64,000 nucleotides of DNA from Phyllobacterium myrsinacearum (GTDB lineage: Bacteria > Pseudomonadota > Alphaproteobacteria > Rhizobiales > Rhizobiaceae). This document shows positions 2,197 to 63,953 of this stretch, in pieces. The first letter of the stretch is position 1. Each line of letters starts with the position of its first letter. Location of the stretch: positions 620,001 through 684,000 of the forward strand of contig NZ_PVBT01000001.1 in assembly GCF_002980555.1 (NCBI RefSeq), in the 5' to 3' direction. A program made the position numbers and the translations under genes. The notes beneath the pieces were generated by a model. It was given only the letters and a program-made list of their open reading frames with translations. It searched no databases and had not been told where the DNA came from.

Positions 2197-3531
2197 ATGA
2201 GCGCTATCACAGCCGACACCATTGCCGATTTCGAAACCCGGTATCCCGCCGTTTTCAATCCGCCGTTCTGGCGCCGTTTCATGCCTGTGCTGATTGCAGC
2301 CGGCATCGTGGCCTATGTGTTTTATTGCTGGTGGTTCTTTTCCATCGGCACCGTGCTTGCCGGCGGCCAGTGGCAGCGTGCCGAACTCTATGCCCGCGAC
2401 TGGGTGTCCTATGCCATCAAGACTACGGTTCGGCCGGGGCCGACGGGCGCAACCGTCAGCTATCCCCGGTTCTCCGAGCTGGGCGACAATCCGAACCCGA
2501 GCTGGGTGGTGAAGGACGGCAACAATGTCGCCATCCTCTTCGGTTCGGACAAGAAGCTCGACATCAACGATCAGCGCGTCATCGCCACGCGCGGCGGCGA
2601 GACCCTGACGGTGCTGCTGGCGGCAGACGGTGCCAAGCCGCAGGGACCGTTGCCAGGCTGGGCAACCCTCAAGGAAGACCAGGTGACGGTGAGTTTCGGC
2701 TTTGCCGGGCAGGCCGATATCATTCCGCAGCGGGTCGTGGTGAGCCGCCGGTTCCTCGGCTGGGCGAATTTCGTCTTCGATACGAGTTCGCCGTTCTGGG
2801 GGAAATCCTTCGGCGAGGTGGCCTCGCTGATCGTCAGCGGCGAGCGCATCAAGCCCGAAATGTCGAATGCATCGCTTGCCTTCGACAATATCTGGTTCAA
2901 CGCCTCGTGGCAGCACGGCGATGTCTGGACAAAACTGCTGCAGACCATTGTCATGGCCTTCATGGGCACGCTGATGGCGTCGCTGCTGTCGTTTCCGCTG
3001 GCCTTCATAGCCGCGCGCAACATCACGCCGAATGTCTTCGCCAACCAGATCACCAAGCGCTTCTTTGATTTCCTGCGTTCGGTTGACATGCTGATCTGGG
3101 CGCTGTTCTTCACCCGCGCTTTCGGTCCCGGACCGCTCGCCGGTATTTCGGCGATCTTCTTCACCGACACCGGCACGCTCGGCAAGGTCTATTCGGAAAC
3201 ACTTGAAAACATCGACGACAAGCAGCGCGAGGGCGTCAAATCCGTCGGCGCGTCGCCGGCCAATGTGCAGCGCTACGGTGTCCTGCCGCAGGTATTGCCG
3301 GTTTTTGCCAGCCAGGCGCTGTATTTCTGGGAATCCAACACCCGCTCGGCCACCATCATCGGTGCCATGGGGGCGGGCGGCATCGGCCTGAAATTGTGGG
3401 AAGCGATGCGCACCAACACCAACTGGCACAATGTCGCCTATATGGTCGTTCTCATCCTCGTCGTGATATTCATCTTTGACGGCATATCGAATGCGCTGCG
3501 CTCGCGTTTAAGTGGGAAGACGCAACATTAG
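2197..3531 (+). CDS. phnE: PhnE, phosphonate ABC transporter permease (second copy, long form)
   Basis: This 444-residue permease pairs with the preceding phnE. The first span (about 30-52) is followed by roughly 190 soluble residues before the conserved transport domain starts near 240. The EAA loop is at about 334-368 (ETLENIDDKQREG, then GVLPQVLP), with GAMGAGGIG after it. The large periplasmic insert is absent from the first PhnE. The stop TAG (3529-3531) lies inside the TTAGAGC end of the repeat element at 3528-3803, so the element provides the stop and possibly the present C-terminus. Confidence 0.92.
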   Translation: MSAITADTIADFETRYPAVFNPPFWRRFMPVLIAAGIVAYVFYCWWFFSIGTVLAGGQWQRAELYARDWVSYAIKTTVRPGPTGATVSYPRFSELGDNPNPSWVVKDGNNVAILFGSDKKLDINDQRVIATRGGETLTVLLAADGAKPQGPLPGWATLKEDQVTVSFGFAGQADIIPQRVVVSRRFLGWANFVFDTSSPFWGKSFGEVASLIVSGERIKPEMSNASLAFDNIWFNASWQHGDVWTKLLQTIVMAFMGTLMASLLSFPLAFIAARNITPNVFANQITKRFFDFLRSVDMLIWALFFTRAFGPGPLAGISAIFFTDTGTLGKVYSETLENIDDKQREGVKSVGASPANVQRYGVLPQVLPVFASQALYFWESNTRSATIIGAMGAGGIGLKLWEAMRTNTNWHNVAYMVVLILVVIFIFDGISNALRSRLSGKTQH

Positions 3532-3803
3532 AGCAAATTTTGTTTATGCGGAGCCAATTCTGTTTCCCGGATGGCGAGACAATCCACGCGGAAGGCAGCG
3601 AGGCCGATGTTTATCCATCGGACGACGCTATCTGACAAAGTGGGTGTCCGCCAGCCGGAAACCCGAAGGGCCGGGTGAATTTGGCCCAATTCCATTGGGT
3701 TTCGGCTTCGCCCGATGGACAGACATCGGTCTCGCCAAACCCCTCGATCTTGAGCCAAATTCCCTCCGGCAGAATGGCTCCGAATAAATAAAACTTGCTC
3801 TAA
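3528..3803 (+). repeat. 276-bp palindromic intergenic element, copy A
   Basis: The element runs from TTAGAGC to GCTCTAA. Its terminal arms of about 35 bp (3528-3562 and 3770-3803) are inverted repeats of each other with a few mismatches. The core, from TTCTG inwards, is nearly identical to the inverted copy at 63678-63953, and its first 120 bp match the copy at 29893-30167. GGCGAGAC/GTCTCGCC and CCGATGT/ACATCGG pairs give a nested palindrome. It fills the phnE-DUF1045 gap and covers the phnE stop codon. There is no transposase; it resembles a non-autonomous mobile or palindromic intergenic repeat. Confidence 0.9.
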
Positions 3804-29892: not shown

Positions 29893-30167
29893 CTAGAGCA
29901 TTTTCCGGCCGTATTGACCGTATTCTGTTTCTCGTCTGGCGAGACAATCCGCGCGGAAGGTGGCGAGGCCGATGTGGTTCATCGGACGAAGGCGCCTGAC
30001 AAAGCGGGTGTCCGCCAGACGGAAACCCGAAGGGACGGGGCCTGTTGCGCCAATTTCGGTGCAAAGCCACTCGCCCGCACGCAGAGTGCGGGTCTTCCTG
30101 TCTTTGCTTGATCTTGGCACAACATGCCTCCGTCAGAATAGATCAATACGGCCGGAAAATGCTCTAA
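29893..30167 (+). repeat. 275-bp palindromic intergenic element, copy B
   Basis: The ends are (C/T)TAGAGCATTTTCCGGCC and its complement; the arms match for the first 24 bases (29894-29917 against 30143-30166). The first 120 bp of the core resemble copy A (3528-3803). The right part diverges and carries its own hairpin CCCGCAC-GCAGA-GTGCGGG. It sits between moaA and mobA, separating genes that are otherwise expected to be adjacent. It supplies the moaA stop codon at its right end and stops 8 bp before mobA at its left end. Confidence 0.88.
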
Positions 30168-63677: not shown

Positions 63678-63953
63678 TTAGAGCCTTTCCTGCTTAAATA
63701 GAATCGTTCTGCCGGAGGGAATTTGGTTCAAGGTCGAGGGGTTTGGCGAGACCGATGCCTTTCCATCGGGCGAAGCCGAAGCCCGATGGGATTGGGCCAA
63801 ATTCACCCGGCCCTCCGGGTTTCCGGCTGGCGGACACCCACTTTGTCAGGCAGCGTCGTCCGATGGGTAAACATCGGCCTCGCTGCCTTCCGCGTGGATT
63901 GTCTCGCCATCCGGGAAACAGAACTGGTTCTATTTAAGCAGGAAAGGCTCTAA
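63678..63953 (-). repeat. 276-bp palindromic intergenic element, copy C
   Basis: An inverted copy of the element at 3528-3803, with core nearly identical. The ends are TTAGAGCCTTTCCTGCTTAA and its complement; the arms match for 26 bases (63678-63703 against 63928-63953), while sharing only TTAGAGC and TTCTG with the arms of the other copies. Its left end stands 10 bp before the epimerase start and probably carries or displaces that promoter. Nothing recognisable lies between 63954 and the window end. Confidence 0.9.

Follow-up and report, generated by a model that had tools for sequence, protein, structure and literature searches.

How do the two arms of a palindromic repeat remain matched to each other when the arms differ from one copy to the next? 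The question is raised by three copies, A, B and C, in a 64,000-nt stretch of the Phyllobacterium myrsinacearum genome (hereafter the window). The copies lie where the original prediction had placed them, A with 276 nt, B with 275 nt and C, on the minus strand, with 276 nt. The outer TTAGAGC that had been described as common to them holds in general, the exception being the left end of copy B, which reads CTAGAGC. The parts of the copies are listed below; G000 is the P. myrsinacearum genome itself, other G numbers are further genomes and L numbers are loci.

3529..3802, plus strand: copy A, complete element with its two terminal TAs (body 3531-3800); in G003 the site is empty and has one TA
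3535..3555, plus strand: left arm of copy A, 21 nt, A class, followed by an extra unpaired base at 3556
3562..3662, plus strand: left hairpin of the copy A core (consensus fold, approximate limits)
3670..3770, plus strand: right hairpin of the copy A core (consensus fold, approximate limits)
3776..3796, plus strand: right arm of copy A, 21 nt, from arm parsing
29894..30166, plus strand: copy B, element; left hairpin as in the others, right hairpin different
29900..29920, plus strand: left arm of copy B (inner limit approximate)
30140..30160, plus strand: right arm of copy B (inner limit approximate)
63679..63952, minus strand: copy C, complete element with its two terminal TAs; G003 (L056) has a copy at this site, as does G014 (L091), there with changed arms
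63926..63946, minus strand: left arm of copy C in element orientation, C class, from the sequence
63685..63705, minus strand: right arm of copy C in element orientation, from the sequence

When the left arm is compared with the reverse complement of the right, the arms pair at 18 of 21 positions in copy A and at 20 of 21 in copy C; the 28-nt ends of copy B are 96% complementary. Copies A and C match at 87% over 277 nt. The fold predicted for all three is a closing stem around two large hairpins, and its z values of -9.6 to -13.5 against shuffles are not those of chance. G000 holds 10 copies with a full-length match to the A core, one further copy with about 82 bp inserted into its core, two that have the B core instead, and three fragments or core-poor palindromes. 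The B-like core outside the window lies at C1:738911-739131 (95%), and the arms of the two copies with this core are unlike each other. By arm class, five copies in G000 belong to the G class, four to the C class and two to the A class.

A Family of Palindromes With Variable Arms

The three copies are members of a palindrome family of about 275 bp with matches in all 21 Phyllobacterium genomes searched. Across 247 genomes of the bacterial family to which the genus belongs, matches occur in at least 28, of which 24 lie outside the genus at 68-83% identity; this is a lower bound, with at most three candidates scored per genome. Five Phyllobacterium plasmid records and one from Aminobacter carry the element, and a search of phage records gave no match. 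The layout reads TA-GAGC, 21 variable bases, GTTCTG, a core of two big hairpins, CAGAAC, the matching 21 bases and GCTC-TA. Between the left arm and GTTCTG there is usually one extra unpaired base, which keeps a constant register in 109 of 114 copies, 83 of them with an A there, and is visible by eye in several other genera too. A TA precedes GAGC at 95 of 114 left ends and 88 of 114 right ends. In other genera, both arms are present, paired and of different sequence at 15 of 24 loci judged by eye, the remainder having one arm or being unparsed.

The main arm sample comprises 114 parsed full copies from 19 genomes. They were drawn from among the matches listed; more existed, and at least two listed full-length matches lie outside the sample. 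A full core match was present at 118 of the 126 loci tried. The eight others are L011 and L012, which together form one interrupted copy, L013 and L020, which form a single B-type copy, L014 (copy B itself), L015, L052 and L053. Removal of the duplicates L033 and L054, of L062 (a parsing miss) and of L133 (truncated left arm) left 114. Locus L247 (G017:C42), which combines a C-class left arm with an A-class right arm in one copy, was excluded as it lies at a contig end, and its unlike arms are likely the result of a mis-join there.

Across this sample, the arms agree inside a copy and differ across copies as had been predicted from A, B and C: identity is 0.876 within and 0.491 between copies, in the separate comparison of arms and cores that had been proposed. 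The lowest within-copy value is 0.71. Between copies, the median is 0.476 and the 95th percentile 0.81, and only five of the 114 copies have a within-copy value below that percentile. The copies of G000 do not mostly carry one arm sequence, nor is identity within copies as low as between them, the two outcomes that had been named as counter-evidence. The arms are, however, not private to each copy. Single linkage at 0.75 yields 16 arm classes, six of them present in several genomes, with 33, 29, 22, 8, 7 and 5 copies plus ten singletons.

The closing stem also covaries. For an alignment of 46 copies (47 were picked for diverse arms and L142 was omitted), both partners have changed in 26 of the 32 pairs of the outer stem, and pairing holds in 92.7% of cells. 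The covariation score is 0.591, compared with 0.163 for shuffled and at most 0.132 for slid partners, a contrast to be read with the fact that relatedness alone can beat shuffles. None of 500 shuffles reached any of five stem measures; with partners displaced by 1-3 columns, pairing falls to 35-43%. The inner hairpins are far less variable than the outer stem.

One asymmetry concerns GANTC at arm positions 17-21, which occurs in the right arm of 48 of the 114 copies, in the left arm of three and never in both; in copy C it lies within 63685-63705. Any connection with CcrM methylation would be a guess.

Insertion as a Single Unit

The variable arms might have been there before the core, and the original prediction considered that a common core had been inserted into different pre-existing palindromes. 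Empty sites speak against this. Flanks were joined at one TA and searched in relatives, and 20 sites were read, chosen among those aligning in one piece. In all 20 the alignment crosses the junction with no arm sequence in between; a single TA stands exactly at the junction in 13, and seven have no TA there. The occupied counterparts of these sites show YTA on the left in 17 of 20 and TAR on the right in 17 of 20. Since the empty sites align straight through, arms and core arrive together as one unit with a duplicated TA. Terminal inverted repeats in many copies (10 with the full core in G000 plus variant cores; 114 parsed with 21-nt arms) are accompanied by insertion into empty sites with target duplication, and we regard the family with high confidence as a MITE-like mobile palindrome. 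At about 275 bp, the element is likely to encode no protein.

Several insertions appear recent. Of ten G000 insertions tested, nine are absent from G003, the closest by flank identity among seven genomes searched, suggesting that most of the tested copies are young. In these nine copies, 18-20 of 21 arm positions pair (the mean of all copies is 18.4). The site of A is occupied in G000, holds a remnant in G009 and is not occupied in G003, G014 or G008, and that of C is occupied in G000, G003 and G014 and not in G009, G008 or G004. These patterns conflict with the overall similarity of the genomes and could stem from precise loss, from independent insertion or from gene flow. Among flipped orthologs there is one weak match, and L254 looks inverted relative to L063.

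No clear preference for stop codons emerged. The codon at the element edge is in frame behind at least 100 open codons at 44 of 228 ends (22 and 29 in the other frames), no clear excess over random YTAR sites of the same DNA (152 of 956). In seven of ten G000 copies (L001-L004, L007-L009), an open frame of 155 codons or more ends in frame at the TAG of one element edge. At L106 (G001) and L126 (G012), the element lies at the 5' end of a gene that reads as sdhC from its translation and the right arm supplies an in-frame ATG; the variable arm may encode a new N-terminus of this sdhC-like gene. The orientation of copies shows no bias relative to local GC skew (p = 0.31), and hence a replication-fork, single-strand route gains no support from this weak test.

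Arms Stay With the Locus While Cores Can Be Exchanged

If arms were replaced as pairs through hairpin-templated repair, the other option that had been raised, orthologous copies should differ in arm class. No class change is seen at 11 orthologous loci (15 comparisons, some non-independent; L234, which has a 2-nt deletion in the left arm, and the remnants L239, L253 and L254 were omitted). Nine ortholog pairs show eight arm differences in 378 positions, where flank identities predict 24; L006/L091 and L056/L091, with five differences each, are among the 15 comparisons and outside this count. Mismatches between the left and right arm are unchanged in the ortholog in 24 of 28 cases (11 loci, one comparison each) and in 26 of 32 over all 15 comparisons. 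The retained mismatches and the few arm differences indicate that arms are preserved at their locus and undergo no rapid correction, and replacement in pairs finds no support at these loci.

Two candidates for an arm class change at one place were rejected. The insertion points of L120 and L121 differ, and the L008 site is empty in G003, so that both L120/L121 and L008/L092 are read as separate insertions.

The same data bear on rapid arm-to-arm copying, by quasi-palindrome correction or template switching, as the process behind the likeness of the two arms in a copy. Both arms have changed in concert at one column in L006/L091 and one in L106/L126. The former, an identical T to G change in both arms of L091 relative to L006, would be a trace of such copying unless L091 is a separate insertion. 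At L239 both arms have perhaps changed together, and by our reading its outer left arm equals the right arm after a core deletion. The mismatches that orthologs share unchanged argue against rapid copying, as does the extra left base, kept in nearly all copies and, by eye, in several other genera. We therefore consider it improbable as the general explanation; local copying between arms may contribute.

Selection on RNA is a further reading, in which the element would be a transcribed structured RNA or a terminator whose closing stem varies by compensatory change. The strong fold and the covariation are as expected for such an RNA, and some copies lie at gene ends. A strand-specific RNA should leave a bias in wobble mismatches, which number 114 and 125 on the two strands without bias, next to 57 transversions. 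Moreover, the arms of young insertions, which differ in sequence, are as well paired as those of other copies, arms hardly change in place between orthologs, and a scan of the window against Rfam gave no match at gathering scores. Taken together, we judge this reading very improbable.

In contrast to the arms, the core can change at a fixed locus. Between L058 (G004) and L127 (G018), the flanks are 96-98% identical and the arms agree at 42 of 42 positions, whereas the cores are 88.6% identical, every difference lying inside the core. The closest core to that of L127 is L124 from the same genome (G018), which has another arm class, at 95.9%; as the two are not identical, the L127 core is no simple mis-assembly of L124. 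Both share a one-base deletion that, among the 46 aligned copies, is found in L124 only (L127 is outside the alignment). In this one clear case, which comes from two draft assemblies, the core was exchanged while the arms stayed, a third option beyond the two of the original prediction. Similarly, L006 agrees with its ortholog L056 at 42 of 42 arm positions, yet its closest core is that of L003, a copy of another class in its own genome (98.2% vs. 91.8%). Core replacement is not the rule, since three ortholog pairs (L038/L068, L074/L080 and L102/L109) keep their cores at 99% or more.

Other orthologs differ in core modules. The core of L236 is 84 bp longer than that of L065, and the core of L234 is 82 bp longer than that of L038 (two extra hairpins by eye in these longer cores), while L237 has lost the right hairpin. 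Core-poor remnants stand at the site of A in G009 (L239), at the site of L127 in G001 (L253) and at the site of L063 in G010 (L254). Further repeats also lie in orthologous regions: at L238 (G020, site of L069) there is a different palindromic repeat of the CTAGTGG...CCACTAG type, and at L240 (G009) and L248 (G008), both at the site of L009, there are longer intergenic repeats in which GTGGTTCG motifs and inverted stretches occur.

Statistics over all pairs of copies show how far arms and cores are linked. Core identity and arm identity correlate at r = 0.12, so that simple descent of whole elements from one recent parent fails and arms and core have partly separate histories, as had been suspected. 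With 'same arm' defined as identity above 0.8, mean core identity is 0.923 for pairs of the same genome and arm (55 pairs), 0.894 for the same genome and different arms (445), 0.880 for different genomes and the same arm (455) and 0.872 for neither (5486); L051, which belongs to G015, was labelled G011 in these pair statistics, a label that no other copy carries. The nearest neighbour by core has the same arm class in 33 of 114 copies and the same genome in 34 of 114, where chance gives about nine each. For the 27 copies of four genomes assembled into 4-6 contigs, the correlation is r = 0.30 overall and r = 0.52 within genomes, where five alike A-class copies of G014 have perhaps raised it. 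The linkage of arm and core is therefore partial, as expected after recent amplification, yet cores cross between arm lineages, according to these statistics and the one clear ortholog case.

Proposed Mobilisation by a Paired Stem

We propose that these repeats are non-autonomous MITE-like palindromes with lineage-marking arms, recombining cores and stem-dependent mobilisation. As the empty sites show, the element inserts as a single unit, mostly at YTAR, and duplicates the TA. Its body is predicted to fold into a closing stem (GAGC, 21 bp and GTTCTG), in which the covariation is seen, around the two large hairpins. The arms mark old lineages and, as seen at orthologous sites, stay with the locus, and cores pass between lineages through recombination of copies, probably by gene conversion that halts where unlike arms start. 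Mobilisation may then act as a filter: if only copies with a paired stem are moved, arms would stay complementary while their sequence is nearly free. What the machinery would read is the stem in its paired or folded state, including the constant TA-GAGC foot, the constant inner GTTCTG and the extra unpaired base, and not the arm sequence.

This filter is preferred because in-place arm copying is contradicted by the retained mismatches and strand-specific RNA selection by the absence of a wobble bias. Other features in keeping with it are the constant foot and inner hexamer, the additional unpaired base, the well-paired young copies and the fact that no insertion sequence with such ends has been found so far. 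Counting against the explanation is that arm and core are not fully independent (the 33 of 114 copies, against nine by chance, and the r = 0.52 within genomes). The seven of 20 junctions with no TA, an extra base that is not invariably A and the origin of the one clear core replacement in two draft assemblies weigh on the same side. For the explanation as a whole, we see the chances as about even. A stricter version, in which the ends are recognised by structure alone, is tentative and on balance doubtful. Here, any pairing 21-bp arms would work and drift as matched pairs, cores would be shuffled, and an enzyme of the Rhizobiales would mobilise folded DNA and duplicate the TA.

Alternatively, the copies could be ordinary MITEs of several terminal-repeat subfamilies, each with its own sequence-specific, TA-duplicating transposase of the IS630 or IS5/IS427 type that has since been lost from many genomes, with cores shared by recombination. 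The six multi-copy arm classes, each in 4 to 13 genomes, resemble such subfamilies; the ten singleton classes and the large variation within classes do not. YTAR with duplication of the TA is the target reported for IS711 in the part of the literature consulted (PMC2266754). Candidate transposase families are present in some relatives, with PF13358 in 5, PF13340 in 9 and PF01609 in 12 of 21 genomes. However, G000 (a 44-contig assembly), despite its young insertions, gave no match to any of the four families searched, PF13358, PF13340, PF01797 and PF01609. Thus, neither the cognate DDE_3 transposase of IS630/Tc1 elements nor, for IS5 (IS427-like) elements, a PF13340 or PF01609 transposase with the same ends is found there.

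Transposase loci and arm matches were also scanned for shared ends and arms. Among 29 transposase loci scanned outside PF01609, 16 have a repeat pair, none starting with TA-GAGC, and 13 have no pair; the repeat pairs of eight transposase loci in G014 read TA-GGACGTG/TA-GGAGGCG. All 12 matches to G-class arms in G000 fall in six known copies. C-class arms gave 31 matches in 26 Rhizobiales-type loci (of 38 loci with arm matches, the other 12 being judged outside Rhizobiales by title and left out). Thirty of the matches run into TTCTG and 21 have a partner arm within 420 nt, and eight of the other ten reach the end of the sequence. With the G-class arms in G000 and the C-class arms in these 26 loci, no autonomous partner was seen, and the stretches beyond L264 and L287, the two that were read, showed no transposase. 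A lost transposase, or an enzyme outside the four searched families, may be involved. We consider separate subfamilies with their own transposases unlikely, though a serious competitor to a stem-dependent mobilisation.

Both L264 and L287, from a Sinorhizobium metagenome-assembled genome, have the same arm class and TTCTG followed by a different interior, which in L264 continues into a shared CCCGAAGGGCC linker.

Relation to Known Elements

Limited literature searches, mostly of titles and with few subscription papers, found no published description of paired hypervariable arms. ERIC/IRU, Correia/NEMIS and RUP are each known by one consensus terminal repeat. In the Phyllobacterium element, by contrast, a single core is flanked by arms of many unlike sequences, complementary within each copy, and cores pass from copy to copy. 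The Rhizobium-specific intergenic mosaic elements (RIME) are mosaic palindromes of rhizobia and thus an alphaproteobacterial neighbour, likened here by description only. In REP/RAYT, IS200/IS605 and integron attC systems, the enzyme reads a hairpin and not a long sequence. The TA duplication of the Phyllobacterium element differs from the behaviour of all three, and, unlike for REP/RAYT and IS200/IS605, a Y1 transposase (PF01797) has no match in 21 Phyllobacterium genomes. These systems nevertheless serve as a working analogy for the reading of structure.

The closest known kind are the TA-type MITEs, that is ERIC/IRU, Correia/NEMIS and RUP, which in the review's sections on them are likewise small, mostly without a protein, built of long stem-loops and bounded by TA ends with target duplication (PMC2229807). 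According to the same sections, an end match to a known IS has been proposed for RUP only. Bru-RS1 and Bru-RS2 of Brucella, a related genus, are palindromic repeats of 103 and 106 bp that are reported hot spots of IS711, whose YTAR target with duplicated TA recalls the sites found here (PMC2266754, PMC10800456). They are less than half the size of the Phyllobacterium element and the descriptions in the parts of these papers that deal with them leave arm variation unmentioned, which sets them apart by description. CIR of Caulobacter and Brucella resemble it in being alphaproteobacterial and in having two hairpins, TA ends and GANTC, here in one stem loop of an element of about 110 bp with a linker between the hairpins. 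As described in the review's account, CIR lack a stem formed by the two ends (PMC2229807), in contrast to the closing stem with variable arms, and they are likewise set apart by description.

Implications

The replacement of a core between orthologous loci and the switches of modules document, in natural genomes, how short dispersed repeats of bacteria recombine with each other. Transposable elements normally keep the sequence of their terminal repeats, since the transposase binds them by sequence. At the transposon ends studied here, it is complementarity, not sequence, that recently mobile elements conserve. Whether mobilisation reads structure or sequence thereby becomes a testable question.
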